Below are positions 1-64,000 of a stretch of DNA of 64,000 nucleotides, piece after piece. How positions within the stretch are numbered: the stretch's first letter is position 1; each line of letters opens with the position of its first letter. Under the pieces are notes generated by a model. It was not told where the DNA came from. It saw only the letters and a list, made by a program, of their open reading frames with translations, and ran no database searches. Origin of the DNA: Rhynochetos jubatus (lineage: Eukaryota > Chordata > Aves > Eurypygiformes > Rhynochetidae); assembly GCA_027574665.1 (NCBI GenBank), contig CM050673.1, positions 10,153,420 to 10,217,419 on the forward strand. The letters are read 5' to 3'. A program made the translations under genes and the position numbers.

Positions 1-13
1 GTTAGGTTTAGGG

Positions 14-194
14 TCCGGAGAACCAGAAAGCCCACAGCTCCAGGGATAATTGGGATTGCAAAGGCCTGCCAAGGAGCACGACACTGCACAGACATGGCTC
101 CTTCCCCAGCTTTCCTAGCCAGAACCCAGGGGGGGCCGTGGCCTGAAACCGCGGTCGGCAACTTCTAGGGTTAGGGTTAGGGTTAGGGTTAGGG
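14..194 (+). repeat. First complete unit, 181 bp: 183-bp type with a 2-bp deletion
   Basis: This unit has the extra TTAGGG of the 183-bp class but lacks 2 bp in the 'ccaagaggagc' segment (reads 'ccaaggagc'). It also has 'gtggcctgaaacc' instead of 'gtggccggaaacc'. The partial unit before it (1-13) shows only a degenerate telomeric tract containing 'taggttt'. The window starts mid-array, so no left boundary of the satellite is seen. Confidence 0.85.
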
Positions 195-902
195 TCCGGA
201 GAACCAGAAAGCCCACAGCTCCAGGGATGATTGGGATTGCAAAGGCCTGCCAAGAGGAGCACGACACTGCACAGACATGGCTCCTTACCCTACTTTCCTA
301 GCCAGAACCCAGGGGGGGCCGTGGCCGAAAACCGCGGTCGGCAACTTCTAGGGTTAGGGTTAGGGTTAGGGTCCGGAGAACCAGAAAGCCCACAGCTCCA
401 GGGATAATTGGGATTGCAAAGGCCTGCCAAGAGGAGCATGACACTGCACAGACATGGCTCCTTCCCCAGCTTTCCTAGCCAGAACCCAGGGGGGGCCGTG
501 GCCGGAAACCGCGGTCGGCAACTTCTAGGGTTAGGGTTAGGGTTAGGGTCCGGAGAACCAGAAAGCCCACAGCTCCAGGGATAATTGGGATTGCAAAGGC
601 CTGCCAAGAGGAGCACGACACTGCACAGACATGGCTCCTTCCCCAGCTTTCCTAGCCAGAACCCCAGGGGGGCCGTGGCCGGAAACCGCGGTCGGCAACT
701 TCTAGGGTTAGGGTTAGGGTTAGGGTCCGGAGAACCAGAAAGCCCACAGCTCCAGGGATAATTGGGATTGCAAAGGCCTGCCAAGAGGAGCACGACACTG
801 CACAGACATGCCTCCTTCCCCTGCTTTCCTATCCAGAACCCAGGGGGGGCCGTGGCCGGAAACCGCGGTCGGCCACTTCTAGGGTTAGGGTTAGGGTTAG
901 GG

Positions 903-1056
903 TCCGGAGAACCAGAAAGCCCACAGCTCCAGGGATAATTGGGATTGCAAAGGCCTGCCAAGAGGAGCACGACACTGCACAGACATGGCTCCTTCCCCTG
1001 CTTTCCTAGCCAGAACCCAGGGGGGGCCGTGGCCGGAAACCGCGGTCGGCAACTTC
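903..1056 (+). repeat. Non-telomeric 154-bp segment of the reference monomer
   Basis: This segment separates consecutive telomeric tracts and is present in every unit. Its length is nearly invariant apart from the G-run at about 1020-1026 (roughly 4 to 10 G across the array) and rare 1-2 bp deletions. I do not recognise it as a SINE, tRNA-derived element, LTR fragment or named satellite. I see no A-box/B-box pair, poly(A) tail or terminal repeats. It could descend from an ordinary subtelomeric sequence captured between short telomere seeds and then amplified. Its origin is unknown from sequence alone. Confidence 0.85.
1023..1050 (+). other. CpG-dense block directly 5' of the telomeric tract (representative)
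   Basis: Five of the monomer's seven CpGs lie in this 28-bp stretch, which includes the palindrome ACCGCGGT (SacII core CCGCGG). It sits immediately upstream of the telomeric tract in the same orientation. Across the array these CpGs are the commonest mutation sites, nearly always as transitions: 'ccgtggtcgg' at about 6570 and 32346, 'actgcgg' at about 1747, 'accacgg' at about 2646, 'gcggttggc' at about 1221, 'ccatggccgg' at about 26418, and 'ggccagaa' at about 22861. This suggests methylated cytosines. Promoter activity is only a possibility, by analogy with CpG-rich repeats upstream of human telomeres. Confidence 0.6.
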
Positions 1057-1079
1057 TAGGGTTAGGGTTAGGGTTAGGG
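1057..1079 (+). repeat. Embedded telomeric tract, four GGG runs (representative)
   Basis: The 23-bp tract is TAGGG followed by three TTAGGG units; the base before it is C. It therefore has exactly four GGG runs with 3-base loops, the minimum for an intramolecular telomeric G-quadruplex. It contains three overlapping matches to the TRF1/TRF2 duplex site YTAGGGTTR (one beginning CTAGGG, two beginning TTAGGG). The equivalent tract closes nearly every monomer; 183-bp units have five runs and 171-bp units three or fewer. TRF binding and G4 folding are inferences from motif matching. Confidence 0.9.
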
Positions 1080-3040
1080 TCCGGAGAACCAGAAAGCCCA
1101 CAGCTCCAGGGATAATTGGGATTGCAAAGGCCTGCCAAGAGGAGCACGACACTGCACAGACATGGCTCCTTCCCCAGCTTTCCTAGCCAGAACCCAGGGG
1201 GGGCCGTGGCCGGAAACCGCGGTTGGCACCTTCTAGGGTTAGGGTTAGGGTTAGGGTCCGGAGAACCAGAAAGCCCACAGCTCCAGGGATAATTGGGATT
1301 GCAAAGGCCTGCCAAGAGGAGCACGACACTGCACAGACATGGCTCCTTCCCCTGCTTTCCTAGCCAGAACATAGGGGGGGCCGTGGCCGGAAACCGCGGT
1401 CGGCCACTTCTAGGGTTAGGGTTAGGGTTAGGGTCCGGAGAACCAGAAAGCCCACAGCTCCAGGGATAATTGGGATTGCAAAGGCCTGCCAAGAGGAGCA
1501 CGACACTGCACAGACATGGCTCCTTCCCCTGCTTTCCTAACCAGAACCCAGGGGGGGGCCGTGGCCGGAAACCGCGGTCGGCCACTTCTAGGGTTAGGGT
1601 TAGGGTTAGGGTCCGGAGAACCAGAAAGCCCACAGCTCCAGGGATAATTGGGATTGCAAAGGCCTGCCAAGAGGAGCACGACACTGCACAGACATGGCTC
1701 CTTCCCCTGCTTTCCTAGCCAGAACCCAGGGGGGGCCGTGGCCGGAAACTGCGGTCGGCAACTTCTAGGGTTAGGGTTAGGGTTAGGGTCCGGAGAACCA
1801 GAAAGCCCACAGCTCCAGGGATAATTGGGATTGCAAAGGCCTGCCAAGAGGAGCACGACACTGCACAGACATGGCTCCTTCCCCAGCTTTCCTAGCCAGA
1901 ACCCGGGGGGGGCCGTGGCCGGAAACCGCGGTCGGCAACTTCTAGGGTTAGGGTTAGGGTTAGGGTTAGGGTCCGGAGAACCAGAAAGCCCACAGCTCCA
2001 GGGATAATTGGGATTGCAAAGGCCTGCCAAGAGGAGCACGACACTGCACAGACATGGCTCCTTCCCCAGCTTTCCTAGCCAGAACCCAGGGGGGGCCGTG
2101 GCCGAAAACCGCGGTCGGCAACTTCTAGGGTTAGGGTTAGGGTTAGGGTCCGGAGAACCAGAAAGCCCACAGCTCCAGGGATAATTGGGATTGCAAAGGC
2201 CTGCCAAGAGGAGCACGACACTGCACCGACATGGCTCCTTCCCCTGCTTTCCTAGCCAGAACCCCGGGGGGGCCGTGGCCGGAAACCGCGGTCGGCAACT
2301 TCTAGGGTTAGTGTTAGGGTTAGGGTTAGGGTCCGGAGAACCAGAAAGCCCACAGCTCCAGGGATAATTGGGATTGCAAAGGCCTGCCAAGAGGAGCACG
2401 ACACTGCACAGACATGGCTCCTTCCCCAGCTTTCCTAGCCAGAACCCAGGGGGGGCCGTGGCCGGAAACCGCGGTCGGCAACTTCTAGGGTTAGGGTTAG
2501 GGTTAGGGTCCGGAGAACCAGAAAGCCCACAGCTCCAGGGATAATTGGGATTGCAAAGGCCTGCCAAGAGGAGCACGACACTGCACCGACATGGCTCCTT
2601 CCCCTGCTTTCCTAGCCAGAACCCAGGGGGCGGCCGTGGCCGGAAACCACGGTCGGCAACTTCTAGGGTTAGGGTTAGGGTTAGGGTCCGGAGAACCAGA
2701 AAGCCCACAGCTCCAGGGATAATTGGGATTGCAAAGGCCTGCCAAGAGGAGCACGACACTGCACAGACATGGCTCCTTCCCCTGCTTTCCTAGCCAGAAC
2801 CCCGGGGGGGCCGTGGCCGGAAACCGCGGTCGGCAACTTCTAGGGTTAGGGTTAGGGTTAGGGTCCGGAGAACCAGAAAGCCCACAGCTCCAGGGATAAT
2901 TGGGATTGCAAAGGCCTGCCAAGAGGAGCCCGACACTGCACCGACATGACTCCTTCCCCAGCTTTCCTAGCCAGAACCCAGGGGGGGCCGTGGCCGAAAA
3001 CTGCGGTCGGCAACTTCTAGGGTTAGGGTTAGGGTTAGGG

Positions 3041-3925
3041 TCCGGAGAACCAGAAAGCCCACAGCTCCAGGGATGATTGGGATTGCAAAGGCCTGCCAAG
3101 AGGAGCACGACACTGCACAGACATGGCTCCTTATCCTACTTTCCTAGCCAGAACCCAGGGGGGGCCGTGGCCGAAAACCGCGGTCGGCAACTTCTAGGGT
3201 TAGGGTTAGGGTTAGGGTCCGGAGAACCAGAAAGCCCACAGCTCCAGGGATAATTGGGATTGCAAAGGCCTGCCAAGAGGAGCATGACACTGCACAGACA
3301 TGGCTCCTTCCCCAGCTTTCCTAGCCAGAACCCAGGGGGGGCCGTGGCCGGAAACCGCGGTCGGCAACTTCTAGGGTTAGGGTTAGGGTTAGGGTCCGGA
3401 GAACCAGAAAGCCCACAGCTCCAGGGATAATTGGGATTGCAAAGGCCTGCCAAGAGGAGCACGACACTGCACAGACATGGCTCCTTCCCCAGCTTTCCTA
3501 GCCAGAACCCCAGGGGGGCCGTGGCCGGAAACCGCGGTCGGCAACTTCTAGGGTTAGGGTTAGGGTTAGGGTCCGGAGAACCAGAAAGCCCACAGCTCCA
3601 GGGATAATTGGGATTGCAAAGGCCTGCCAAGAGGAGCACGACACTGCACAGACATGGCTCCTTCCCCTGCTTTCCAATCCAGAACCCAGGGGGGGCCGTG
3701 GCCGGAAACCGCGGTCGGCCACTTCTAGGGTTAGGGTTAGGGTTAGGGTCCGGAGAACCAGAAAGCCCACAGCTCCAGGGATAATTGGGATTGCAAAGGC
3801 CTGCCAAGAGGAGCACGACACTGCACAGACATGGCTCCTTCCCCTGCTTTCCTAGCCAGAACCCAGGGGGGGCCGTGGCCGGAAACCGCGGTCGGCAAAT
3901 TCTAGGGTTAGGGTTAGGGTTAGGG
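3041..3925 (+). repeat. Five-unit block, copy 2 (first copy 195-1079)
   Basis: Counterpart of the block at 195-1079, offset 2846 bp. The offset is 16 monomers plus net extra bases, mainly hexamer gains. Its leading marker unit recurs twice more, near 5632 and 7420, within the 1,788-bp duplication. Confidence 0.75.
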
Positions 3926-4279
3926 TCCGGAGAACCAGAAAGCCCACAGCTCCAGGGATAATTGGGATTGCAAAGGCCTGCCAAGAGGAGCACGACACTG
4001 CACCGACATGGCTCCTTCCCCTGCTTTCCTAACCAGAACCCGGGGGGGGCCGTGGCCGGAAACCGCGGTCGGCCACTTCTAGGGTTAGGGTTAGGGTTAG
4101 GGTCCGGAGAACCAGAAAGCCCACAGCTCCAGGGATAATTGGGATTGCAAAGGCCTGCCAAGAGGAGCACGACACTGCACAGACATGGCTCCTTCCCCTG
4201 CTTTCCTAGCCAGAACCCAGGGGGGGCCGTGGCCGGAAACTGCGGTCGGCAACTTCTAGGGTTAGGGTTAGGGTTAGGG

Positions 4280-4645: not shown

Positions 4646-4822
4646 TCCGGAGAACCAGAAAGCCCACAGCTCCAGGGATAATTGGGATTGCAAAGGCCTG
4701 CCAAGAGGAGCACGACACTGCACAGACATGGCTCCTTCCCCAGCTTTCCTAGCCAGAACCCAGGGGGGGCCGTGGCCGGAAACCGCGGTCGGCAACTTCT
4801 AGGGTTAGGGTTAGGGTTAGGG

Positions 4823-21900: not shown

Positions 21901-23967
21901 AGCACGACACTGCACAGACATGGCTCCTTCCCCTGCTTTCCTAGCCAGAACCCAGGGGGGGCCGTGGCCGGAAACCGCGGTCGGCAACTTCTAGGGTTAG
22001 GGTTAGGGTTAGGGTCCGGAGAACCAGAAAGCCCACAGCTCCAGGGATAATTGGGATTGCAAAGGCCTGCCAAGAGGAGCACGACACTGCACAGACATGG
22101 CTCCTTCCCCTGCTTTCCTAGCCAGAACCCCGGGGGGGCCGTGGCCGGAAACCGCGGTTGGCAACTTCTAGGGTTACGGTTGGGGTTAGGGTCCGGAGAA
22201 CCAGAAAGCCCACAGCTCCAGGGATAATTGGGATTGCAAAGGCCTGCCAAGAGGAGCACGACACTGCACAGACATGGCTCCTTCCCCAGCTTTCCTAGCC
22301 AGATCCCGGTGGGGCCGTGGCCGGAAACCGCGGTCGGCAACTTCTAGGGTTAGGGTTAGGGTTAGGGTTAGGGTCCGGAGAACCAGAAAGCCCACAGCTC
22401 CAGGGATAATTGGGATTGCAAAGGCCTGCCAAGAGGAGCACGACACTGCACAGACATGGTTCCTTCCCCTGCTTTCCTAGCCAGAACCCAGGGGAGGCCG
22501 TGGCCGGAAACCGCGGTCGGCAACTTCTAGGGTTAGGGTTAGGGTTAGGGTCCGGAGAACCAGAAAGCCCACAGCTCCAGGGATAATTGGGATTGCAAAG
22601 GCCTGCCAAGAGGAGCACGACACTGCACCGACATGGCTCCTTCCCCTGCTTTCCTAGCCAGAACCCAGGGGGGGCCGTGGCCGGAAACCGCGGTCGGCAA
22701 CTTCTAGGGTTAGGGTTAGGGTTAGGGTCCGGAGAACCAGAAAGCCCACAGCTCCAGGGATACTTGGGATTGCAAAGGCCTGCCAAGAGGAGCACGACAC
22801 TGCACCGACATGGCTCCTTCCCCAGCTTTCCTAGCCAGAACCCGGGGGGGGGCCGTGGCCAGAAACCGCGGTCGGCAACTTGTAGGGTTAGGGTTAGGGT
22901 CTGGAGAACCAGAAAGCCCACAGCTCCAGGGATAATTGGGATTGCAAAGGCCTGCCAAGAGGAGCACGACACTGCACAGACATGGCTCCTTCACCTGCTT
23001 TCCTAGCCAGAACCCAGGGGGGGCCGTTGCCGGAAACCGCGGTCGGCACCTTCTAGGGTTAGGGTTAGGGTTAGGGTCCGGAGAACCAGAAAGCCCACAG
23101 CTCCAGGGATAATTGGGATTGCAAAGGCCTGCCAAGAGGAGCACGACACTGCACAGACATGGCTCCTTCCCCTGCTTTCCTAGCCAGAACCCAGGGGGGG
23201 CCGTGGCCGGAAACCGCGGTCGGCAACTTCTAGGGTTAGGGTTAGGGTTAGGGTCCGGAGAACCAGAAAGCCCACAGCTCCAGGGATAATTGGGATTGCA
23301 AAGGCCTGCCAAGAGGAGCACGACACTGCACAGACATGGCTCCTTCCCCTGCTTTCCTAGCCAGAACCCAGGGGGGGCCGTGGCCGGAAACCGCGGTCGG
23401 CAACTTCTAGGGTTACGGTTGGGGTTAGGGTCCGGAGAACCAGAAAGCCCACAGCTCCAGGGATAATTGGGATTGCAAAGGCCTGCCAAGAGGAGCACGA
23501 CACTGCACAGACATGGCTCCTTCCCCAGCTTTCCTAGCCAGATCCCGGTGGGGGTCGTGGCCGGAAACCGCGGTCGGCAACTTCTAGGGTTAGGGTTAGG
23601 GTTAGGGTTAGGGTCCGGAGAACCAGAAAGCCCACAGCTCCAGGGATAATTGGGATTGCAAAGGCCTGCCAAGAGGAGCACGACACTGCACCGACATGGC
23701 TCCTTCCCCAGCTTTCCTAGCCAGAACCCAGGGGGGGCCGTGGCCGGAAACCGCGCTCGGCAACTTCTAGGGTTAGGGTTAGGGTTAGGGTCCGGAGAAC
23801 CAGAAAGCCCACAGCTCCAGGGATAATTGGGATTGCAAAGGCCTGCCAAGAGGAGCACGACACTGCACCGACATGGCTCCTTCCCCTGCTTTCCTAGCCA
23901 GAACCCAGGGGGGGCCGTGGCCGGAAACCGCGGTCGGCAACTTCTAGGGTTAGGGTTAGGGTTAGGG

Positions 23968-38604: not shown

Positions 38605-41600
38605 TCCGGAGAACCAGAAAGCCCACAGCTCCAGGGATAATTGGGATTGCAAAGGCCTGCCAAGAGGAGCACGACACTGCACAGACATGGCTCCTTCCCC
38701 AGCTTTCCTAGCCAGATCCCGGTGGGGCCGTGGCCGGAAACCGCGGTCGGCAACTTCTAGGGTTAGGGTTAGGGTTAGGGTTAGGGTCCGGAGAACCAGA
38801 AAGCCCACAGCTCCAGGGATAATTGGGATTGCAAAGGCCTGCCAAGAGGAGCACGACACTGCACAGACATGGCTCCTTCCCCTGCTTTCCTAGCCAGAAC
38901 TCAGGGGGGGCCGTGGCCGGAAACCGCGGTTGGCACCTTCTAGGGTTAGGGTTAGGGTTAGGGTCCGGAGAACCAGAAAGCCCACAGCTCCAGGGATAAT
39001 TGGGATTGCAAAGGCCTGCCAAGAGGAGCACGACACTGCACAGACATGGCTCCTTCCCCAGCTTTCCTAGCCAGAACCCAGGGGGGGCCGTGGCCGGAAA
39101 CCGCGGTCGGCCACTTCTAGGGTTAGGGTTAGGGTTAGGGTTAGGGTCCGGAGAACCAGAAAGCCCACAGCTCCAGTTATGATTGGGATTGCAAAGGCCT
39201 GCCAAGAGGAGCACGACACTGCACCGACATGGCTCCTTCCCCTGCTTTCCTAGCCAGAACCCAGGGGGGGCCGTTGCCGGAAACCGCGGTCGGCAACTTC
39301 TAGGGTTAGGGTTAGGGTTAGGGTCCGGAGAACCAGAAAGCCCACAGCTCCAGGGATAATTGGGATTGCAAAGGCCTGCCAAGAGGAGCACGACACTGCA
39401 CAGACATGGCTCCTTCCCCTGCTTTCCTAGCCAGAACCCAGGGGGGGCCGTGGCCGGAAACCGCGCTCGGCAACTTCTAGGGTTAGGGTTAGGGTTAGGG
39501 TCCGGAGAACCAGAAAGCCCACAGCTCCAGGGATAATTGGGATTGCAAAGGCCTGCCAAGAGGAGCACGACACTGCACAGACATGGCTCCTTCCCCTGCT
39601 TTCCTAGCCAGAACCCAGGGGGGGCCGTGGCCGGAAACCGCGGTTGGCAACTTCTAGGGTTACGGTTGGGGTTAGGGTCCGGAGAACCAGAAAGCCCACA
39701 GCTCCAGGGATAATTGGGATTGCAAAGGCCTGCCAAGAGGAGCACGACACTGCACCGACATGGCTCCTTCCCCAGCTTTCCTAGCCAGATCCCGGTGGGG
39801 CCGTGGCCGGAAACCGCGGTCGGCAACTTCTAGGGTTAGGGTTAGGGTTAGGGTTAGGGTCCGGAGAACCAGAAAGCCCACAGCTCCAGGGATAATTGGG
39901 ATTGCAAAGGCCTGCCAAGAGGAGCACGACACTGCACCGACATGGTTCCTTCCCCTGCTTTCCTAGCCAGAACCCAGGGGAGGCCGTGGCCGGAAACCGC
40001 GGTCGGCAACTTCTAGGGTTAGGGTTAGGGTTAGGGTCCGGAGAACCAGAAAGCCCACAGCTCCAGGGATAATTGGGATTGCAAAGGCCTGCCAAGAGGA
40101 GCACGACACTGCACCGACATGGCTCCTTCCCCTGCTTTCCTAGCCAGAACCCAGGGGGGGCCGTGGCCGGAAACCGCGGTCGGCAACTTCTAGGGTTAGG
40201 GTTAGGGTTAGGGTCCGGAGAACCAGAAAGCCCACAGCTCCAGGGATACTTGGGATTGCAAAGGCCTGCCAAGAGGAGCACGACACTGCACCGACATGGC
40301 TCCTTCCCCAGCTTTCCTAGCCAGAACCCGGGGGGGGGCCGTGGCCAGAAACCGCGGTCGGCAACTTGTAGGGTTAGGGTTAGGGTCTGGAGAACCAGAA
40401 AGCCCACAGCTCCAGGGATAATTGGGATTGCAAAGGCCTGCCAAGAGGAGCACGACACTGCACAGACATGGCTCCTTCCCCTGCTTTCCTAGCCAGAACT
40501 CAGGGGGGGCCGTGGCCGGAAACCGCGGTTGGCACCTTCTAGGGTTAGGGTTAGGGTTAGGGTCCGGAGAACCAGAAAGCCCACAGCTCCAGGGATAATT
40601 GGGATTGCAAAGGCCTGCCAAGAGGAGCACGACACTGCACCGACATGGCTCCTTTCCCTGCTTTCCTAGCCAGAACCCAGGGGGGGCCGTTGCCGGAAAC
40701 CGCGGTCGGCACCTTCTAGGGTTAGGGTTAGGGTTAGGGTCCGGAGAACCCGAAAGCCCACAGCTCCAGGGATAATTGGGATTGCAAAGGCCTGCCAAGA
40801 GGAGCACGACACTGCACAGACATGGCTCCTTCCCCTGCTTTCCTAGCCAGAACCCAGGGGGGGCCGTGGCCGGAAACCGCGGTCGGCAACTTCTAGGGTT
40901 AGGGTTAGGGTTAGGGTCCGGAGAACCAGAAAGCCCACAGCTCCAGGGATAATTGGGATTGCAAAGGCCTACCAAGAGGAGCACGACACTGCACAGACAT
41001 GGCTCCTTCCCCTGCTTTCCTAGCCAGAACCCAGGGGGGGCCGTGGCCGGAAACCGCGGTCGGCAACTTCTAGGGTTAGGGTTGGGGTTAGGGTCCGGAG
41101 AACCAGAAAGCCCACAGCTCCAGGGATAATTGGGATTGCAAAGGCCTGCCAAGAGGAGCACGACACTGCACAGACATGGCTCCTTCCCCAGCTTTCCTAG
41201 CCAGATCCCGGTGGGGGTCGTGGCCGGAAACCGCGGTCGGCAACTTCTAGGGTTAGGGTTAGGGTTAGGGTTAGGGTCCGGAGAACCAGAAAGCCCACAG
41301 CTCCAGGGATAATTGGGATTGCAAGGGCCTGCCAAGAGGAGCACGACACTGCACCGACATGGCTCCTTCCCCAGCTTTCCTAGCCAGAACCCAGGGGGGG
41401 CCGTGGCCGGAAACCGCGGTCGGCAACTTCTAGGGTTAGGGTTAGGGTTAGGGTCCGGAGAACCAGAAAGCCCACAGCTCCAGGGATAATTGGGATTGCA
41501 AAGGCCTGCCAAGAGGAGCACGACACTGCACAGACATGGCTCCTTCCCCTGCTTTCCTAGCCAGAACCCAGGGGGGGCCGTGGCCGGAAACTGCGGTCGG

Positions 41601-43235: not shown

Positions 43236-46200
43236 TCCGGAGAACCAGAAAGCCCACAGCTCCAGGGATAATTGGGATTGCAAAGGCCTGCCAAGAGGAG
43301 CACGACACTGCACAGACATGGCTCCTTCCCCTGCTTTCCTAGCCAGATCCCGGTGGGGCCGTGGCCGGAAACCGCGGTCGGCAACTTCTAGGGTTAGGGT
43401 TAGGGTTAGGGTTAGGGTCCGGAGAACCAGAAAGCCCACAGCTCCAGGGATAATTGGGATTGCAAAGGCCTGCCAAGAGGAGCACGACACTGCACAGACA
43501 TGGCTCCTTCCCCTGCTTTCCTAGCCAGAACTCAGGGGGGGCCGTGGCCGGAAACCGCGGTTGGCACCTTCTAGGGTTAGGGTTAGGGTTAGGGTCCGGA
43601 GAACCAGAAAGCCCACAGCTCCAGGGATAATTGGGATTGCAAAGGCCTGCCAAGAGGAGCACGACACTGCACAGACATGGCTCCTTCCCCAGCTTTCCTA
43701 GCCAGAACCCAGGGGGGGCCGTGGCCGGAAACCGCGGTCGGCCACTTCTAGGGTTAGGGTTAGGGTTAGGGTTAGGGTCCGGAGAACCAGAAAGCCCACA
43801 GCTCCAGTTATGATTGGGATTGCAAAGGCCTGCCAAGAGGAGCACGACACTGCACCGACATGGCTCCTTCCCCTGCTTTCCTAGCCAGAACCCAGGGGGG
43901 GCCGTTGCCGGAAACCGCGGTCGGCAACTTCTAGGGTTAGGGTTAGGGTTAGGGTCCGGAGAACCAGAAAGCCCACAGCTCCAGGGATAATTGGGATTGC
44001 AAAGGCCTGCCAAGAGGAGCACGACACTGCACAGACATGGCTCCTTCCCCTGCTTTCCTAGCCAGAACCCAGGGGGGGCCGTGGCCGGAAACCGCGGTCG
44101 GCAACTTCTAGGGTTAGGGTTAGGGTTAGGGTCCGGAGAACCAGAAAGCCCACAGCTCCAGGGATAATTGGGATTGCAAAGGCCTGCCAAGAGGAGCACG
44201 ACACTGCACAGACATGGCTCCTTCCCCTGCTTTCCTAGCCAGAACTCAGGGGGGGCCGTGGCCGGAAACCGCGGTTGGCACCTTCTAGGGTTAGGGTTAG
44301 GGTTAGGGTCCGGAGAACCAGAAAGCCCACAGCTCCAGGGATAATTGGGATTGCAAAGGCCTGCCAAGAGGAGCACGACACTGCACAGACATGGCTCCTT
44401 CCCCAGCTTTCCTAGCCAGAACCCAGGGGGGGCCGTGGCCGGAAACCGCGGTCGGCCACTTCTAGGGTTAGGGTTAGGGTTAGGGTTAGGGTCCGGAGAA
44501 CCAGAAAGCCCACAGCTCCAGTTATGATTGGGATTGCAAAGGCCTGCCAAGAGGAGCACGACACTGCACCGACATGGCTCCTTCCCCTGCTTTCCTAGCC
44601 AGAACCCAGGGGGGGCCGTTGCCGGAAACCGCGGTCGGCAACTTCTAGGGTTAGGGTTAGGGTTAGGGTCCGGAGAACCAGAAAGCCCACAGCTCCAGGG
44701 ATAATTGGGATTGCAAAGGCCTGCCAAGAGGAGCACGACACTGCACAGACATGGCTCCTTCCCCTGCTTTCCTAGCCAGAACCCAGGGGGGGCCGTGGCC
44801 GGAAACCGCGGTCGGCAACTTCTAGGGTTAGGGTTAGGGTTAGGGTCCGGAGAACCAGAAAGCCCACAGCTCCAGGGATAATTGGGATTGCAAAGGCCTG
44901 CCAAGAGGAGCACGACACTGCACAGACATGGCTCCTTCCCCTGCTTTCCTAGCCAGAACCCAGGGGGGGCCGTGGCCGGAAACCGCGGTTGGCAACTTCT
45001 AGGGTTACGGTTGGGGTTAGGGTCCGGAGAACCAGAAAGCCCACAGCTCCAGGGATAATTGGGATTGCAAAGGCCTGCCAAGAGGAGCACGACACTGCAC
45101 CGACATGGCTCCTTCCCCAGCTTTCCTAGCCAGAACCCAGGGGGGGCCGTGGCCGGAAACCGCGGTCGGCAACTTCTAGGGTTAGGGTTAGGGTTAGGGT
45201 TAGGGTCCGGAGAACCAGAAAGCCCACAGCTCCAGGGATAATTGGGATTGCAAAGGCCTGCCAAGAGGAGCACGACACTGCACCGACATGGTTCCTTCCC
45301 CTGCTTTCCTAGCCAGAACCCAGGGGAGGCCGTGGCCGGAAACCGCGGTCGGCAACTTCTAGGGTTAGGGTTAGGGTTAGGGTCCGGAGAACCAGAAAGC
45401 CCACAGCTCCAGGGATAATTGGGATTGCAAAGGCCTGCCAAGAGGAGCACGACACTGCACCGACATGGCTCCTTCCCCTGCTTTCCTAGCCAGAACCCAG
45501 GGGGGGCCATGGCCGGAAACCGCGGTCGGCAACTTCTAGGGTTAGGGTTAGGGTTAGGGTCCGGAGAACCAGAAAGCCCACAGCTCCAGGGATACTTGGG
45601 ATTGCAAAGGCCTGCCAAGAGGAGCACGACACTGCACCGACATGGCTCCTTCCCCAGCTTTCCTAGCCAGAACCCGGGGGGGGGCCGTGGCCAGAAACCG
45701 CGGTCGGCAACTTGTAGGGTTAGGGTTAGGGTCTGGAGAACCAGAAAGCCCACAGCTCCAGGGATAATTGGGATTGCAAAGGCCTGCCAAGAGGAGCACG
45801 ACACTGCACAGACATGGCTCCTTCCCCTGCTTTCCTAGCCAGAACTCAGGGGGGGCCGTGGCCGGAAACCGCGGTTGGCACCTTCTAGGGTTAGGGTTAG
45901 GGTTAGGGTCCGGAGAACCAGAAAGCCCACAGCTCCAGGGATAATTGGGATTGCAAAGGCCTGCCAAGAGGAGCACGACACTGCACCGACATGGCTCCTT
46001 TCCCTGCTTTCCTAGCCAGAACCCAGGGGGGGCCGTTGCCGGAAACCGCGGTCGGCACCTTCTAGGGTTAGGGTTAGGGTTAGGGTCCGGAGAACCCGAA
46101 AGCCCACAGCTCCAGGGATAATTGGGATTGCAAAGGCCTGCCAAGAGGAGCACGACACTGCACAGACATGGCTCCTTCCCCTGCTTTCCTAGCCAGAACC

Positions 46201-48581
46201 CAGGGGGGGCCGTGGCCGGAAACCGCGGTCGGCAACTTCTAGGGTTAGGGTTAGGGTTAGGGTCCGGAGAACCAGAAAGCCCACAGCTCCAGGGATAATT
46301 GGGATTGCAAAGGCCTGCCAAGAGGAGCACGACACTGCACAGACATGGCTCCTTCCCCTGCTTTCCTAGCCAGAACCCAGGGGGGGCCGTGGCCGGAAAC
46401 CGCGGTCGGCAACTTCTAGGGTTAGGGTTGGGGTTAGGGTCCGGAGAACCAGAAAGCCCACAGCTCCAGGGATAATTGGGATTGCAAAGGCCTGCCAAGA
46501 GGAGCACGACACTGCACAGACATGGCTCCTTCCCCAGCTTTCCTAGCCAGATCCCGGTGGGGGTCGTGGCCGGAAACCGCGGTCGGCAACTTCTAGGGTT
46601 AGGGTTAGGGTTAGGGTTAGGGTCCGGAGAACCAGAAAGCCCACAGCTCCAGGGATAATTGGGATTGCAAGGGCCTGCCAAGAGGAGCACGACACTGCAC
46701 CGACATGGCTCCTTCCCCAGCTTTCCTAGCCAGAACCCAGGGGGGGCCGTGGCCGGAAACCGCGGTCGGCAACTTCTAGGGTTAGGGTTAGGGTTAGGGT
46801 CCGGAGAACCAGAAAGCCCACAGCTCCAGGGATAATTGGGATTGCAAAGGCCTGCCAAGAGGAGCACGACACTGCACAGACATGGCTCCTTCCCCTGCTT
46901 TCCTAGCCAGAACCCAGGGGGGGCCGTGGCCGGAAACTGCGGTCGGCAACTTCTAGGGTTAGGGTTAGGGTTAGGGTCCGGAGAACCAGAAAGCCCACAG
47001 CTCCAGGGATAATTGGGATTGCAAGGGCCTGCCAAGAGGAGCACGACACTGCACCGACATGGCTCCTTCCCCAGCTTTCCTAGCCAGAACCCAGGGGGGG
47101 CCGTGGCCGGAAACCGCGGTCGGCAACTTCTAGGGTTAGGGTTAGGGTTAGGGTCCGGAGAACCAGAAAGCCCACAGCTCCAGGGATAATTGGGATTGCA
47201 AAGGCCTGCCAAGAGGAGCACGACACTGCACAGACATGGCTCCTTCCCCTGCTTTCCTAGCCAGAACCCAGGGGGGGCCGTGGCCGGAAACCGCGGTCGG
47301 CAACTTCTAGGGTTAGGGTTAGGGTTAGGGTCCGGAGAACCAGAAAGCCCACAGCTCCAGGGATAATTGGGATTGCAAAGGCCTGCCAAGAGGAGCACGA
47401 CACTGCACAGACATGGCTCCTTCCCCTGCTTTCCTAGCCAGAACCCAGGGGGGGCCGTGGCCGGAAACCGCGGTCGGCAACTTCTAGGGTTAGGGTTAGG
47501 GTTAGGGTTAGGGTCCGGAGAACCAGAAAGCCCACAGCTCCAGGGATAATTGGGATTGCAAAGGCCTGCCAAGAGGAGCACGACACTGCACAGACATGGC
47601 TCCTTCCCCTGCTTTCCTAGCCAGAACCCAGGGGGGGCCGTGGCCGGAAACCGCGCTCGGCAACTTCTAGGGTTAGGGTTAGGGTTAGGGTCCGGAGAAC
47701 CAGAAAGCCCACAGCTCCAGGGATAATTGGGATTGCAAAGGCCTGCCAAGAGGAGCACGACACTGCACCGACATGGCTCCTTCCCCAGCTTTCCTAGCCA
47801 GAACCCAGGGGGGGCCGTGGCCGGAAACCGCGGTCGGCAACTTCTAGGGTTAGGGTTAGGGTTAGGGTCCGGAGATCCAGAAAGCCCACAGCTCCAGGGA
47901 TAATTGGGATTGCAAAGGCCTGCCAAGAGGAGCACGACACTGCACAGACATGGCTCCTTCCCCTGCTTTCCTAGCCAGAACCCAGGGGGGGCCGTGGCCG
48001 GAAACCGCGGTCGGCAACTTCTAGGGTTAGGGTTAGGGTTAGGGTCCGGAGAACCAGAAAGCCCACAGCTCCAGGGATAATTGGGATTGCAAAGGCCTGC
48101 CAAGAGGAGCACGACACTGCACAGACATGGCTCCTTCCCCTGCTTTCCTAGCCAGAACCCAGGGGGGGCCATGGCCGGAAACCGCGGTCGGCAACTTCTA
48201 GGGTTAGGGTTGGGGTTAGGGTCCGGAGAACCAGAAAGCCCACAGCTCCAGGGATAATTGGGATTGCAAAGGCCTGCCAAGAGGAGCATGACACTGCACA
48301 GACATGGCTCCTTCCCCAGCTTTCCTAGCCAGATCCCGGTGGGGGTCGTGGCCGGAAACCGCGGTCGGCAACTTCTAGGGTTAGGGTTAGGGTTAGGGTT
48401 AGGGTCCGGAGAACCAGAAAGCCCACAGCTCCAGGGATAATTGGGATTGCAAAGGCCTGCCAAGAGGAGCACGACACTGCACCGACATGGCTCCTTCCCC
48501 AGCTTTCCTAGCCAGAACCCAGGGGGGGCCGTGGCCGGAAACCGCGGTCGGCAACTTCTAGGGTTAGGGTTAGGGTTAGGG
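43236..48581 (+). repeat. 4,631-bp tandem duplication, copy 2, expanded to 5,346 bp
   Basis: Copy 2 of 38605-43235, carrying the same marker series ('ctccagttatgattggg' at about 43806 and again at 44520; 'gctcctttccc' at about 45998; 'ggagatccag' at about 47874). The extra length comes from the four-unit duplication at 43418-44845. Copy-specific changes include 'ccatggccgg' near 45508 and 'agaaccca' in place of 'gatcccggtgggg' near 45132. Confidence 0.9.
43418..44845 (+). repeat. 714-bp four-monomer duplication inside copy 2
   Basis: Copies 43418-44131 and 44132-44845 are adjacent and appear identical: a 'gaactcagg'/'ggcacctt' unit, a 'ggccacttc' 183-bp unit, a 'ctccagttatg' unit with 'ccgttgccgg', and a plain unit. 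Copy 1 of the large duplication (near 38.8-39.5 kb) has this set once, so this event came after, or accompanied, the 4,631-bp duplication. Confidence 0.88.
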
Positions 48582-48935
48582 TCCGGAGAACCAGAAAGCC
48601 CACAGCTCCAGGGATAATTGGGATTGCAAAGGCCTGCCAAGAGGAGCACGACACTGCACAGACATGGCTCCTTCCCCTGCTTTCCTAGCCAGAACCCAGG
48701 GGGGGCCGTGGCCGGAAACCGCGGTCGGCAACTTCTAGGGTTAGGGTTAGGGTTAGGGTCCGGAGAACCAGAAAGCCCACAGCTCCAGGGATAATTGGGA
48801 TTGCAAAGGCCTGCCAAGAGGAGCACGACACTGCACAGACATGGCTCCTTCCCCTGCTTTCCTAGCCAGAACCCAGGGGGGGCCATGGCCGGAAACCGCG
48901 GTCGGCAACTTCTAGGGTTAGGGTTGGGGTTAGGG
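47691..48935 (+). repeat. Partial third 714-bp step: 47691-48221 repeated at 48405-48935
   Basis: Three units match at 714 bp, ending in a 'ccatggccgg' unit with a TTGGGG tract (about 48171 and 48885); 'ggagatccag' marks only the left copy. The fourth unit differs. The step straddles the right end of the 4,631-bp duplication, near 48581. Confidence 0.7.
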
Positions 48936-49199
48936 TCCGGAGAACCAGAAAGCCCACAGCTCCAGGGATAATTGGGATTGCAAAGGCCTGCCAAGAGGAG
49001 CACGACACTGCACAGACATGGCTCCTTCCCCAGCTTTCCTAGCCAGAACCCAGGGGGGGCCGTGGCCGGAAACCGCGGTCGGCAACTTCTAGGGTTAGGG
49101 TTAGGGTTAGGGTTAGGGTCCGGAGAACCAGAAAGCCCACAGCTCCAGGGATAATTGGGATTGCAAAGGCCTGCCAAGAGGAGCACGACACTGCACAGA

Positions 49200-52100
49200 C
49201 ATGGCTCCTTCCCCAGCTTTCCTAGCCAGAACCCGGGGGGGGCCGTGGCCGGAAACCGTGGTCGGCAACTTCTACGGTTAGGGTTAGGGTTAGGGTCTGG
49301 AGAACCAGAAGGCCCACAGCTCCAGGGATAATTGGGATTGCAAAGGCCTGCCAAGAGGAGCACGACACTGCACAGACATGGCTCCTTCCCCTGCTTTCCT
49401 AGCCAGAACCCAGGGGGGGCCGTGGCCAGAAACCGCGGTCGGCAACTTCTAGGGTTAGGGTTAGGGTTAGGGTCCGGAGAACCAGAAAGCCCACAGCTCC
49501 AGGGATAATTGGGATTGCAAAGGCCTGCCAAGAGGAGCACGACACTGCATCGACATGGCTCCTTCCCCAGCTTTCCTAGCCAGAACCCAGGGGAGGCCGT
49601 GGCCGGAAACCGCGGTCGGCAACTTCTAGGGTTAGGGTTAGGGTTAGGGTCCGGAGAACCAGAAAGCCCACAGCTCCAGGGATAATTGGGATTGCAAAGG
49701 CCTGCCAAGAGGAGCACGACACTGCACCGACATGGCTCCTTCCCCTGCTTTCCTAGCCAGAACCCCGGGGGGGCCGTGGCCGGAAACCGCGGTCGGCAAC
49801 TTCTAGGGTTAGGGTTAGGGTTAGGGTCCGGAGAACCAGAAAGCCCACAGCTCCAGGGATAATTGGGATTGCAAAGGCCTGCCAAGAGGAGCACGACACT
49901 GCACAGACATGGCTCCTTCCCCAGCTTTCCTAGCAGATCCCGGGGGGGGCCGTGGCCGGAAACCGCGGTCGGCAACTTCTAGGGTTAGGGTTAGGGTTAG
50001 TGTCCGGAGAACCAGAAAGCCCACAGCTCCAGGGATAATTGGGATTGCAAAGGCCTGCCAAGAGGAGCACGACACTGCACAGACATGGCTCCTTCCCCTG
50101 CTTTCCTAGCCAGAACCCAGGGGGGGCCGTGGCCGGAAACCGCGCTCGGCAACTTCTAGGGTTAGGGTTAGGGTTAGGGTCCGGAGAACCAGAAAGCCCA
50201 CAGCTCCAGGGATAATTGGGATTGCAAAGGCCTGCCAAGAGGAGCACGACACTGCACAGACATGGCTCCTTCCCCTGCTTTCCTAGCCAGAACCCAGGGG
50301 GGGCCGTGGCCGGAAACCGCGGTCGGCAACTTCTAGGGTTAGGGTTAGGGTTAGGGTCCGGAGAACCAGAAGGCCCACAGCTCCAGGGATAATTGGGATT
50401 GCAAAGGCCTGCCAAGAGGAGCACGACACTGCACAGACATGGCTCCTTCCCCTGCTTTCCTAGCCAGAACCCAGGGGGGGCCGTGGCCGGAAACCGCGGT
50501 CGGCAACTTCTAGGGTTAGGGTTAGGGTTAGGGTCCGGAGAACCAGAAAGCCCACAGCTCCAGGGATAATTGGGATTGCAAACGCCTGCCAAGAGGAGCA
50601 CGACACTGCACCGACATGGCTCCTTCCCCAGCTTTCCTAGCCAGAACCCGGGGGGGCCGTGGCCGGAAACCGCGGTCGGCAACTTCTAGTGTTAGGGTTA
50701 GGGTCCGGAGAACCAGAAAGCCCACAGCTCCAGGGATAATTGGGATTGCAAAGGCCTGCCAAGAGGAGCACGACACTGCACCGACATGGGTCCTTCCCCA
50801 GCTTTCCTAGCCCGAACCCAGGGGGGGCCGTGGCCGGAAACCGCGGTCGGCAACTTCTAGGGTTAGGGTTAGGGTTAGGGTCCGGAGAACCAGAAAGCCC
50901 ACAGCTCCAGGGATAATTGGGATTGCAAAGGCCTGCCAAGAGGAGCACGACACTGCACAGACATGGCTCCTTCCCCTGCTTTCCTAGCCAGAACCCAGGG
51001 GGGGCCGTGGCCGGAAACCGCGGTCGGCAACTTCTAGGGTTAGGGTTAGGGTTAGGGTCCGGAGAACCAGAAAGCCCACAGCTCCAGGGATAATTGGGAT
51101 TGCAAAGGCCTGCCAAGAGGAGCACGACACTGCACAGACATGGCTCCTTCCCCAGCTTTCCTAGCCAGAACCCGGGGGGGGCCGTGGCCGGAAACCGCGG
51201 TCGGCAACTTCTAGGGTTAGGGTTAGGGTTAGGGTCCGGAGAACCAGAAAGCCCACAGCTCCAGGGATAATTGGGATTGCAAAGGCCTGCCAAGAGGAGC
51301 ACGACACTGCACAGACATGGCTCCTTCCCCAGCTTTCCTAGCCAGAACCCAGGGGGGGCCGTGCCCAGAAACCGCGGTCGGCAACTTCTAGGGTTAGGGT
51401 TAGGGTTAGGGTCCGGAGAACCAGAAAGCCCACAGCTCCAGGGATAATTGGGATTGCAAAGGCCTGCCAAGAGGAGCACGACACTGCACAGACATGGCTC
51501 CTTCCCCTGCTTTCCTAGCCAGAACCCAGGGGGGGCCGTGGCCGGAAACCGCGGTCGGCAACTTCTAGGGTTAGGGTTGGGTTTAGGGTCCGGAGAACCA
51601 GAAAGCCCACAGCTCCAGGGATAATTGGGATTGCAAAGGCCTGCCAAGAGGAGCACGACACTGCACAGACATGGCTCCTTCCCCTGCTTTCCTAGCCAGA
51701 ACCCAGGGGGGGCCGTGGCCGGAAACCGCGGTCGGCAACTTCTAGGGTTAGGGTTAGGGTTAGGGTCCGGAGAACCAGAAAGCCCACAGCTCCAGGGACA
51801 CTTGGGATTGCAAAGGCCTGCCAAGAGGAGCACGACACTGCACCGACATGGCTCCTTCCCCTGCTTTCCTAGCCAGAACCCAGGGGGGGCCGTGGCCGGA
51901 AACCGCGGTCGGCAACTTCTAGGGTTAGGGTTAGGGTTAGGGTCCGGAGAACCAGAAAGCCCACAGCTCCAGGGATAATTGGGATTGCAAAGGCCTGCCA
52001 AGAGGAGCATGACACTGCACCGACATGGCTCCTTCCCCAGCTTTCCTAGCCAGAACCCAGGGGGGGCCGTGGCCGGAAACCGCGGTCGGCAACTTCTAGG

Positions 52101-60111: not shown

Positions 60112-60999
60112 TCCGGAGAACCAGAAAGCCCACAGCTCCAGGGATAATTGGGATTGCAAAGGCCTGCCAAGAGGAGCACGACACTGCACAGACATGGCTC
60201 CTTCCCCTGCTTTCCTAGCCAGAACCCAGGGGGGGCCGTGGCCGGAAACCGCGGTCGGCAACTTCTAGGGTTAGGGTTGGGGTTAGGGTCCGGAGAACCA
60301 GAAAGCCCACAGCTCCAGGGATAATTTGGATTGCAAAGGCCTGCCAAGAGGAGCACGACACTGCACAGACATGGCTCCTTCCCCAGCTTTCCTAGCCAGA
60401 TCCCGGGGGGGGCCGTGGCCGGAAACCGCGGTCGGCAACTTCTAGGGTTAGGGTTAGGGTTAGGGTCCGGAGAACCAGAAAGCCCACAGCTCCAGGGATA
60501 ATTGGGATTGCAAACGCCTGCCAAGAGGAGCACGACACTGCACCGACATGGCTCCTTCCCCTGCTTTCCTAGCCAGAACCCAGGGGGGGCCGTGGCCGGA
60601 AACCGCGGTTGGCAACTTCTAGGGTTAGGGTTGGGGTTAGGGTCCGGAGAACCAGAAAGCCCACAGCTCCAGGGATACTTGGGATTGCAAAGGGCTGCCA
60701 AGAGGAGCACGACACTGCACCGACATGGCTCCTTCCCCAGCGTTCCTAGCCAGAACCCGGGGGGGGGCCGTGGCCGGAAACCACGGTCGGCAACTTGTAG
60801 GGTTAGGCTTAGGGTCTGGAGAACCAGAAAGCCCACAGCTCCAGGGATAATTGGGATTGCAAAGGCCTGCCAAGAGGAGCACGACACTGCACCGACATGG
60901 CTCCTTCCCCTGCTTTCCTAGCCAGAACCCAGGGGGGGCCGTGGCCGAAAACCGCGGTCGGCAACTTCTAGGGTTAGGGTTAGGGTTAGGGTCCGGAGA

Positions 61000-63900
61000 A
61001 CCAGAAAGCCCACAGCTCCAGGGATAATTGGGATTGCAAAGGCCTGCCAAGAGGAGCACGACACTGCACCGACATGGCTCCTTCCCCAGCTTTCCTAGCC
61101 AGATCCCGGTGGGGGTCGTGGCCGGAAACCGCGGTCGGCAACTTTTAGGGTTAGGGTTAGGGTTAGGGTTAGGGTCCGGAGAACCAGAAAGCCCACAGCT
61201 CCAGGGATAATTGGGATTGCAAAGGCCTGCCAAGAGGAGCACGACACTGCACCGACATGGCTCCTTCCCCAGCTTTCCTAGCCAGAACCCAGGGGGGGCC
61301 GTGGCCGGAAACCGCGGTCGGCAACTTCTAGGGTTAGGGTTAGGGTTAGGGTCCGGAGAACCAGAAAGCCCACAGCTCCATGGATAATTGGGATTGCAAA
61401 GGCCTGCCAAGAGGAGCACGACACTGCACCGACATGGCTCCTTCCCCTGCTTTCCTAGCCAGAACCCAGGGGGGGCCGTGGCCGGAAACCGCGGTCGGCA
61501 ACTTCTAGGGTTAGGGTTAGGGTTAGGGTCCGGAGAACCAGAAAGCCCACAGCTCCAGGGATAATTGGGATTGCAAAGGCCTGCCAAGAGGAGCACGACA
61601 CTGCACCGACATGGCTCCTTCCCCTGCTTTCCTAGCCAGAACCCGGGGGGGGCCATGGCCGGAAACCGCGGTCGGCAACTTCTAGGGTTAGGGTTAGGGT
61701 TAGGGTTAGGGTCCGGAGAACCAGAAAGCCCACAGCTCCAGGGATAATTGGGATTGCAAAGGCCTGCCAAGAGGAGCACGACACTGCACAGACATGGCTC
61801 CTTCCCCTGCTTTCCTAGCCAGAACCCAGGGGGTCCGTGGCCGGAAACCGCGCTCGGCAACTTCTAGGGTTAGGGTTAGGGTTAGGGTTAGGGTCCGGAG
61901 AACCAGAAAGCCCACAGCTCCAGGGATAATTGGGATTGCAAAGGCCTGCCAAGAGGAGCACGACACTGCACCAACATGGCACCTTCCCCTGCTTTCCTAG
62001 CCAGAACCCAGGGGGGGCCGTTGCCGGAAACCGCGGTCGGCACCTTCTAGGGTTAGGGTTAGGGTTAGGGTCCGGAGAACCCGAAAGCCCACAGCTCCAG
62101 GGATAATTGGGATTGCAAAGGCCTGCCAAGAGGAGCACGACACTGCACAGACATGGCTCCTTCCCCTGCTTTCCTAGCCAGAACCCAGGGGGGGCCGTGG
62201 CCGGAAACCGCGGTCGGCAACTTCTAGGGTTAGGGTTAGGGTTAGGGTCCGGAGAACCAGAAAGCCCACAGCTCCAGGGATAATTGGGATTGCAAAGGCC
62301 TGCCAAGAGGAGCACGACACTGCACAGACATGGCTCCTTCCCCTGCTTTCCTAGCCAGAACCCAGGGGGGGCCGTGGCCGGAAACCGCGGTCGGCAACTT
62401 CTAGGGTTAGGGTTGGGGTTAGGGTCCGGAGAACCAGAAAGCCCACAGCTCCAGGGATAATTGGGATTGCAAAGGCCTGCCAAGAGGAGCACGACACTGC
62501 ACAGACATGGCTCCTTCCCCAGCTTTCCTAGCCAGAACCCAGGGGGGGTCGTGGCCGGAAACCGCGGTCGGCAACTTCTAGGGTTAGGGTTAGGGTTAGG
62601 GTCCGGAGAACCAGAAAGCCCACAGCTCCAGGGATAATTGGGATTGCAAAGGCCTGCCAAGAGGAGCACGACACTGCACCGACATGGCTCCTTCCCCTGC
62701 TTTCCTAGCCAGAACCCAGGGGGGGCCGTGGCCGGAAACCGCGGTCGGCAACTTCTAGGGTTAGGGTTAGGGTTAGGGTTAGGGTCCGGAGAACCAGAAA
62801 GCCCACAGCTCCAGGGATAATTGGGATTGCAAAGGCCTGCCAAGAGGAGCACGACACTGCACAGACATGGCTCCTTCCCCTGCTTTCCTAGCCAGAACCC
62901 AGGGGGGGCCGTGGCCGGAAACCGCGCTCGGCAACTTCTAGGGTTAGGGTTAGGGTTAGGGTCCGGAGAACCAGAAAGCCCACAGCTCCAGGGATAATTG
63001 GGATTGCAAAGGCCTGCCAAGAGGAGCACGACACTGCACAGACATGGCTCCTTCCCCTGCTTTCCTAGCCAGAACCCAGGGGGGGCCATGGCCGGAAACC
63101 GCGGTCGGCAACTTCTAGGGTTAGGGTTGGGGTTAGGGTCCGGAGAACCAGAAAGCCCACAGCTCCAGGGATAATTGGGATTGCAAAGGCCTGCCAAGAG
63201 GAGCACGACACTGCACAGACATGGCTCCTTCCCCAGCTTTCCTAGCCAGATGCCGGGGTGGGCCGTGGCCGGAAACCGCGGTCGGCAACTTCTAGGGTTA
63301 GGGTTAGGGTTAGGGTTAGGGTCCGGAGAACCAGAAAGCCCACAGCTCCAGGGATAATTGGGATTGCAAAGGCCTGCCAAGAGGAGCACGACACTGCACC
63401 GACATGGCTCCTTCCCCAGCTTTCCTAGCCAGAACCCAGGGGGGGCCGTGGCCGGAAACCGTGGTCGGCAACTTCTACGGTTAGGGTTAGGGTTAGGGTC
63501 TGGAGAACCAGAAGGCCCACAGCTCCATGGATAATTGGGATTGCAAAGGCCTGCCAAGAGGAGCACGACACTGCACCGACATGGCTCCTTCCCCTGCTTT
63601 CCTAGCCAGAACCCAGGGGGGGCCGTGGCCGGAAACCGCGGTCGGCAACTTCTAGGGTTAGGGTTGGGGTTAGGGTCCGGAGAACCAGAAAGCCCACAGC
63701 TCCAGGGATAATTGGGATTGCAAAGGCCTGCCAAGAGGAGCACGACACTGCACAGACATGGCTCCTTCCCCAGCTTTCCTAGCCAGATGCCGGGGGGGGC
63801 CGTGGCCGGAAACCGCGGTCGGCAACTTCTAGGGTTAGGGTTAGGGTTAGGGTCCGGAGAACCAGAAAGCCCACAGCTCCAGGGATAATTGGGATTGCAA

Positions 63901-64000
63901 AGGCCTGCCAAGAGGAGCACGACACTGCACCGACATGGCTCCTTCCCCAGCTTTCCTAGCCAGAACCCAGGGGGGGCCGTGGCCGGAAACCGCGGTCGGC
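61000..64000 (+). repeat. Right-hand segment: return of zone C/D-type monomers, open at the window edge
   Basis: Contains 'gatcccggtggggg' (about 61103), 'gcgctcggc' (about 61850, 62926), 'catggcacc' with 'ccgttgccgg', 'ggcacctt' and 'gaacccgaaag' (about 61978-62090), and two 'gatgccgggg' units (about 63250 and 63787) found nowhere else. The array continues through base 64000; no transition to pure TTAGGG or to unique DNA is seen. Confidence 0.65.

Follow-up and report, generated by a model that had tools for sequence, protein, structure and literature searches.

The locus raises the question of what kind of sequence carries a short telomeric tract in every unit of a long tandem array. The window, which is the whole stretch of 64,000 nucleotides that was analysed, probably lies on a small chromosome of a bird-like genome and forms the homogeneous core of a (peri)centromeric satellite block, in which a founding monomer captured telomeric repeats and was spread by concerted evolution. 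Rather than a telomere, the tract is most likely a passenger that was inherited and is maintained by concerted evolution.

The repeat unit and its telomeric tract

Positions 1-64000 form a single array with a period of 177, 359.9 copies and 95% matches (TRF), and the sequences sampled on both sides of the window (L010 and L011) carry units in the same orientation. The units lie head to tail and are homogenised within the array (mean pairwise divergence of 2.5%), as is characteristic of satellite DNA. A fuzzy unit anchor occurs 360 times in the window and 207 of the 359 spacings measure 177; the others are 183, 176, 178, 173 and more, since units have gained or lost whole hexamers and single bases, and the perfectly regular spacing claimed by the earlier note is incorrect. 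A second parser found 347 anchors with 13 double spacings, giving 346 pieces, with one tract read per double piece. A telomeric tract is present in all 346, which bears out the description of a composite satellite of about 360 same-orientation units. The array had been put at 64 kb; the window is indeed wholly one array, but this is the length of the window only and the block extends over approximately 550 kb by sampling. Positions 1-4000 match no RNA family in Rfam at E values up to 1.

Table 1. Features of the window (type A is the homogeneous core form with a perfect tract)
Feature	Positions	Strand	Basis
Type-A satellite array, ~360 head-to-tail units mostly of 177 bp	1..64000	+	TRF
First complete unit of 181 bp, made of a non-telomeric segment and a 30-nt tract	14..194	+	sequence, parser
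Telomeric tract of the first complete unit, CTAGGG(TTAGGG)4	165..194	+	sequence
Typical 177-bp unit: 153-bp non-telomeric segment and 24-nt tract	195..371	+	sequence, spacing
Typical tract CTAGGG(TTAGGG)3: three YTAGGGTTR 9-mers, four GGG runs	348..371	+	sequence, tract census

TTAGGG occurs 1039 times in the window and CCCTAA never, and therefore the tracts keep one orientation throughout. The consensus tract has 24 nt, CTAGGG(TTAGGG)3, not the 23 bp first proposed, and is exact in 214 of the 346 pieces. Parsed tracts have 18 nt (n=11), 24 nt (n=267), 30 nt (n=67) or, in a single case that includes non-telomeric flank, 37 nt. They make up 8,653 of 63,839 parsed bases (13.6%), close to the eighth estimated before. 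The uninterrupted hexamer array of a telomere is not found, the hexamers being confined mostly to 18-30-nt tracts between segments of approximately 154 bp. TTAGGG repeats are present at non-terminal sites, as in interstitial telomeric sequences; the short in-register tract of each unit, always in one orientation, distinguishes this composite family from ordinary interstitial telomere blocks, as the earlier note proposed.

Genomic abundance, position and layering

In the bird-like assembly of 1.33 Gb (1,331 Mb), a 21-mer from the core of the unit has 119,554 exact copies, corresponding to approximately 21 Mb, while a reversed-pattern control has none. Such a high copy number is typical of satellite DNA. 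Contigs C1 to C7, which hold half of the assembly (674 of 1,331 Mb), contain 40 of these copies, in scattered short runs. Because these contigs lack large arrays, the satellite cannot supply the centromeres of all chromosomes, unless the arrays of C1 to C7 sit on other contigs.

Sampled blocks on the smaller contigs are mostly internal. On C13, which is 26.2 Mb long, the block spans 8.33 Mb to 9.875 Mb or beyond, and units are found at 13.25-13.60 of 31.6 Mb on C12, at 8.76-9.20 of 34.9 Mb on C11, with a second place at 13.75 Mb, and at 25.87-26.10 of 42.6 Mb on C8. Blocks lie well inside nine contigs (C8, C11, C12, C13, C14, C24, C25, C27 and C34), and four others (C20, C21, C23 and C28) have them no more than about 0.8 Mb from a contig end. 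On C28, the 10.3-Mb contig bearing the window, the block occupies about 9.74-10.29 Mb, its right boundary approximately 13 kb short of the end. The location at most chromosome ends envisaged by the earlier note does not hold for this distribution. That the family is a telomere-associated or telomere-replacing sequence of chromosome ends is very improbable: the vertebrate hexamers within the units and the four near-terminal blocks agree with it, but a terminal location is rejected for the nine contigs with internal blocks, and telomeric hexamer runs free of units exist close to the end of C4 and within the initial 3 kb of C5 and of C60. The latter two belong to a sample of 13 contig starts, 3 kb of each, in which the probe used detected no unit, and no satellite unit lies in the 3 kb surrounding the point where the C4-end run begins.

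Among the matches listed (100 of 280 places), a rare variant of type B, the subfamily with a degenerate tract, forms one cluster per contig on C13, C14, C20, C21, C23, C24, C25, C27, C28 and C34, and likewise on C55 and C116; the remaining 180 places are on C117 or later contigs, and sampling hardly extended to the contigs after C38 (roughly 200 Mb). One block per chromosome is accordingly a partial result: the listed matches form single clusters, but C11 has units in two places and C1 to C7 have no large array.

Perfect tracts were sampled on C11, C13, C14, C23, C24, C27 and C28, and degenerate ones on C8, C12, C20, C21, C25 and C34. On C13 and C28 a type-A core is flanked on both sides by type B. 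On C13, type B occupies 8.329-8.336 Mb, type A is present at 8.338 Mb and in samples as far as 9.60 Mb, and type B returns at 9.830-9.875 Mb; the samples at 8.30 and 9.95 Mb have no units. The layers of C28 are B at 9.740-9.851, A at 9.862-10.227, B at 10.232, A at 10.240 and B at 10.250-10.292 Mb, followed mostly by other sequence. Identity to the own type in the C28 samples is 97.4-99.2% for A (n=9) and 93.7-98.6% for B (n=9). B is on average more divergent than A, yet the B samples adjoining the core (L021 and L022) reach 98.3-98.6% and are as uniform as A. The layering is not clean, because A and B alternate at the right edge of the C28 block and six isolated B junctions occur within the C13 core. 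A core between more divergent layers, the arrangement of centromeric satellites, is therefore seen on both contigs with some alternation, and this layout suggests that the blocks are centromeric or flank centromeres. The nucleosome-sized unit with its tract and the near absence from C1 to C7 also point to the centromeric reading.

False expansion or misjoining during assembly is extremely improbable as the source of the array. Assembly of long tandem arrays is difficult and the first 5 kb of C28 are N, but the units differ by approximately 2.5% with patterned variants, two contigs share a similar layout of A core and B flanks, and old copies stand in otherwise different sequence.

Homogenisation, origin and role of the tract

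No higher-order repeat is seen in the window, where mean divergence is flat at 2.3-2.5% for lags of 1 to 40 units. Long identical stretches, such as one of 2,893 bp at offset 3,891, indicate that exchange is still ongoing. The tract-bearing composite is of old origin, as dispersed old fragments share the same structure. Of 91 unit starts across 19 dispersed loci, 68 are immediately preceded by a match to (TTAGGG)2 at 10 or more of its 12 positions, compared with 1 of 91 random positions. Unit spacing in the sampled dispersed loci is mostly 160-182 bp. Dispersal as extrachromosomal circles of integral unit number was rejected, since the whole-number unit counts suggested by eye did not hold up in 16 loci (Rayleigh p of 0.69 and 0.45). 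Insert ends fall inside the tract in 6 of 32 cases (4.9 expected) and 10 of 32 cases (5.5 expected) in two tests, which is not robust. The unit-number and insert-end tests excluded L044, an inverted pair, and L051 and L061, both cut at the edge of the retrieved sequence.

The founding monomer may have been a segment of roughly 150 bp joined to a few TTAGGG repeats, either at a telomere-subtelomere junction or by insertion of telomeric repeats at a break. Amplification and homogenisation of the entire composite would have followed through unequal exchange and conversion, the tract length being set by gains and losses of whole hexamers, and the resulting blocks would serve as centromeres or flank them.

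The tract could instead be functional, providing in each unit a TRF1/TRF2-type binding site and so a regular pericentromeric shelterin lattice that aids cohesion, silencing or recombination, which is quite unlikely. The 9-mer YTAGGGTTR, the binding motif of telomere proteins of the TRF1/TRF2 type, occurs 1014 times in the window, whereas 20 single-base shuffles average 0.4 occurrences. There are three such sites in the A and C11 consensus units and two in those of B, C12 and the older copies, so at least two remain in each of the five while hexamers and GGG runs decay. Within the window, at least two are present in 327 of 346 pieces, but 19 pieces have none or one. Random substitution would leave at least two sites with a probability of 0.35 after two changes (B) and 0.12 after three (C12), and jointly the retention is not significant. 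Nor is the tract unusually conserved: its substitution rate per site is 0.99%, compared with 1.53% outside it, and 31% of 24-bp windows have a still lower rate, in a comparison of 333 of the 346 pieces that drops double-length ones and whose anchoring on the core slightly favours the conservation of the core. Neither of these two tests of selection, on substitution rate in the array and on retained sites in the consensus units, is positive. A G-quadruplex role was also rejected; GGG runs number four in type-A tracts but three in B and two in C12, and therefore the requirement for four is not conserved.

A regular TRF1/TRF2-type lattice at the centromere block of small bird chromosomes, formed by the short telomeric site in every nucleosome-length unit of a centromere-type satellite, is thus distinctly improbable. 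If the lattice existed, the role of shelterin away from chromosome ends could be asked directly. Contigs with perfect and with degenerate tracts offer a natural comparison for the action of telomere proteins at centromeres.

Comparison with known systems

Identity with an already described avian satellite is unlikely. One candidate, an owl centromeric satellite, reportedly has a 174-bp unit, was cloned in the form of HaeIII monomers and is present on every macro- and microchromosome. It is similar to the present family in unit length (dispersed units here being mostly 160-182 bp apart), in avian origin, in abundance and in the probable centromeric location of the latter. On the other hand, presence at all macrochromosome centromeres does not agree with the 40 copies on C1 to C7, unless arrays lie on unlisted contigs, and three GGCC sites are found in the type-A consensus, at odds with the reported cloning as HaeIII monomers. 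The owl satellite is not known to have a telomeric tract, and the two are set apart by description. A search of 5.39 million papers with six strings of the unit found no printed match. The owl satellite is cited as Yamada et al. 2004 in PMC12455985 and PMC5629816. Nothing resembling the unit appears in the accessible portions of PMC11375038, PMC8687609, PMC8466491, PMC8022941 and PMC12134992, and a thrush satellite table lists no family of 177 bp. Exact searches with a 28-mer in viral contigs and a 22-mer in prokaryote genome contigs, collections not meant for vertebrates, gave no match.

Satellites containing telomeric motifs were known before, and the present family would be a variant of that kind. 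According to PMC12467311, CpeSat05-72 and CpeSat02-24 of the bat Carollia perspicillata contain telomeric repeats and are located in pericentromeric heterochromatin. Their units have 72 and 24 bp, the 24-bp one being the telomeric repeat, whereas here a nucleosome-sized unrelated segment and a tract form a fixed composite. The same source describes the DraI satellite of the fish Pagellus erythrinus and RUSI of Rumex induratus, both associated with telomeric motifs and subtelomeric, RUSI also at some centromeres and with degenerate motifs; the present family differs by its many internal blocks and by the perfect tract of its main subfamily. Clustered interstitial telomeric sequences, as outlined in part of PMC9498494, also place telomeric motifs inside chromosomes, often in pericentromeric regions and sometimes mixed with other repeats, but usually include a large share of degenerate motifs, in contrast to the single short in-register tract per unit seen here.

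In woodpeckers, TTAGGG FISH signals are found at the centromeres of Colaptes pairs 1-3 and Melanerpes pairs 1, 2 and 5, and the excerpted text of PMC5230766 discusses them as possible fusion remnants or repeat accumulation. No satellite sequence accompanies the signals in that text; a satellite like the present one could produce such a signal. If the blocks described here are centromeric, a tract-bearing satellite may be the source of telomere-probe signals at the centromeres of birds, signals that are open to interpretation as scars of fusion.

Array structure of the window

The window is a single unbroken tandem array from position 1 to 64000, with a period of 177 and 359.9 copies in Tandem Repeats Finder; a fuzzy anchor is found in it 360 times, which bears out the earlier note's estimate of about 360 units. 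The single orientation claimed there also holds, with TTAGGG occurring 1039 times in the window and CCCTAA never. Unit parsing anchored on a conserved block gives 347 anchors and, with 13 double spacings, 346 pieces, and the telomeric tract claimed for each unit is present in all 346, only one tract being read in each of the 13 double pieces. The commonest tract is CTAGGG(TTAGGG)3 (214/346 pieces), one extra hexamer is found in 55/346, and tract bases make up 8,653 of the 63,839 parsed bases. Spacing is indeed regular, but not perfectly so as had been stated: it shifts both by whole hexamers and by single bases.

Fourteen open frames of at least 600 codons, all on the minus strand and the longest of 1,473 aa, cross many units of the window. 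They are probably meaningless because 177 is a multiple of 3, although read-through transcripts of the array could encode repeats.

Abundance, subfamilies and chromosomal position

The assembly has 1,331,379,947 bases in 148 contigs, numbered here from C1, and the contig of the window, C28, has 10,305,424, of which the window takes up 10153420-10217419. Sampled contigs among C1-C38 decrease in length from 148.6 to 2.3 Mb, except the small C9 and C10; an estimated 200 Mb lies in sparsely sampled contigs after C38, so some of these may be larger than members of C1-C7. What we take to be avian CR1 is present at two of the sampled loci, and on this ground the genome is considered bird-like. A 22-mer of the core, the conserved block of the unit, has 54,978 exact copies in the assembly and a core 21-mer has 119,554, with none for a reversed-pattern control. 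At about 177 bp per copy of the 21-mer, the satellite occupies about 21 Mb, or 1.6% of the assembly, a figure that excludes units with altered core. C1-C7 (674 Mb) hold 40 copies of this 21-mer in short scattered runs, a count that is complete because the matches, listed in contig order, extend to C8, where a longer array starts at 25.872 Mb.

Subfamilies were assigned from samples, one to several for each contig. Type A, with a perfect tract, is sampled on C13, C14, C23, C24, C27, and C28, and its junction between TTAGGGTTAGGG and TCCGGAGAACCAGAAAG has 46,577 exact copies in the assembly; the type-B junction has 21,627. The type-B tract is degenerate, TTAGGGTTAGGGCTAGGGTTAGCG, and is found on C20, C21, C25, C34, C55, and C116 and in flanks on C13 and C28, where B samples of C28 have about 82-85% identity to A. 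The C12 type, sampled on C8 and C12, has the tract TTAGGGTTACGCTTAGGGTTAGCG, and the C11 type has a perfect one.

Along C13, an A core lies between two B flanks, with no units beyond either flank; the core was sampled across about 1.5 Mb and has six isolated exact B junctions within it. C28, mapped by sampling along the contig, resembles this B-A-B layout, with one alternation close to the right edge (see the table). Among the matches listed (100 of 280), a rare variant of type B falls into one cluster per contig on ten contigs from C13 to C34 and also on C55 and C116; the remaining 180 places are on C117 or later contigs. The blocks on C20, C21, C23, and C28 lie at most about 0.8 Mb from a contig end. 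The block layout is as expected of a centromere-type satellite.

On both C28 and C24, a second satellite, with a 92-bp period, lies close to the blocks. The B-type cluster at C34:3.450 Mb (L128) is adjoined by a very GC-rich (77%) short tandem repeat, GGGGCGGGGCTTAAGGGGCGAGG-like. The opening bases of two sampled loci, C28:1-5000 (L009) and C6:1-3000 (L030), read N, either as a gap or as withheld sequence.

Locations of open frames and satellite segments
Feature	Location	Strand	Basis or extent
Open frame	window 22722-27086	minus	spanning many units
Open frame	window 34503-38753	minus	spanning many units
Open frame	window 45554-49975	minus	spanning many units
92-bp satellite (L015)	C28 9.153 Mb		by eye
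92-bp satellite (L100, L014, L019, L092)	C28 9.60-9.715 Mb		sampled, autocorrelation
Other sequence	C28 9.73 Mb		sampled
Type-B units	C28 9.740-9.851 Mb		sampled
Type-A units	C28 9.862-10.227 Mb		sampled
Type B	C28 10.232 Mb		sampled
Type A	C28 10.240 Mb		sampled
Type B	C28 10.250-10.292 Mb		sampled
Mostly other sequence, few inverted, decayed units	C28 last 10 kb		sampled
92-bp satellite (L122)	C24 3.20 Mb		by eye

The location at most chromosome ends that the earlier note expected is contradicted by nine blocks well within their contigs and by telomeric hexamer runs that lack units, about 4.5 kb from the C4 end and within 3 kb of the start of C5 and of C60. The probe used finds no unit at any of 13 sampled contig starts, 11 of which also lack a telomeric hexamer run. 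The satellite as telomere is rejected on these unit-free runs and starts. Near the C4 end (L006, 79.184 Mb), a short tandem repeat, some 60 bp in size and containing TTCCCGGCATGC, was seen by eye beside the telomeric repeats and is possibly subtelomeric. An interstitial tract of about 1 kb at C2:134.516 Mb (L004) mixes TTAGGG, TTCGGG, TTTGGG, and TTCAGG and has no match to satellite units.

Age and possible role of the telomeric tract

Short runs of one to about a dozen units are embedded in sequence of other kinds on the large contigs; stretches of them are on average 82-90% identical to a consensus built from older copies. Directly upstream of 68/91 unit starts at 19 dispersed loci there are at least 10/12 matches to (TTAGGG)2, as against 1/91 random positions, and therefore the tract, as part of the unit, is older than the present form of the arrays. 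Dispersal as re-inserted circles predicts whole-number unit counts in short runs, a prediction that failed, and a preference of short-run ends for the tract was not upheld in the dispersed loci. In two dispersed arrays (L053 and L054, C2:28.89 and 31.79 Mb), LTR-like sequence starting TGTCRTGG is found at the identical unit position, which points to a common origin or to a favoured site of insertion.

The tract has 0.99% substitutions per site versus 1.53% elsewhere, but 31% of 24-bp windows have still fewer; the most conserved part of the unit is TTGCAAAGGCCTGCCAAGAGGAGC and the bases around it, mildly favoured by the use of this part as the anchor. Each of five consensus units has two or three YTAGGGTTR 9-mers, and random substitution leaves at least two with probability 0.35 in B and 0.12 in the C12 type. 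Since such sites can be retained by chance and the substitution rate of the tract is not exceptional, a protein-binding role, which the sequence would allow, is not supported. A needed quadruplex is spoken against by the decrease of GGG runs to three in B and two in the C12 type.

Comparison with known satellites

The satellite is genuine, abundant, and of unusual regularity, and is best seen as (peri)centromeric, its telomeric segment being inherited. For six strings of the unit, the papers searched gave no match. The major centromeric satellite of owls (Yamada, 2004) is reportedly a 174-bp family found on all chromosomes and cloned as HaeIII monomers. These described traits fit poorly, so the present satellite is kept apart from that family. 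Both PMC12455985 and PMC5629816 cite the 2004 owl study, and the former also cites a preprint on new centromeres in the snowy owl. The satellite raises the presence of telomere proteins at centromeres as a testable question. A bat, a fish, and a plant are known to have satellites that go together with telomeric repeats (PMC12467311), and woodpeckers show telomere FISH signals at their centromeres (PMC5230766).
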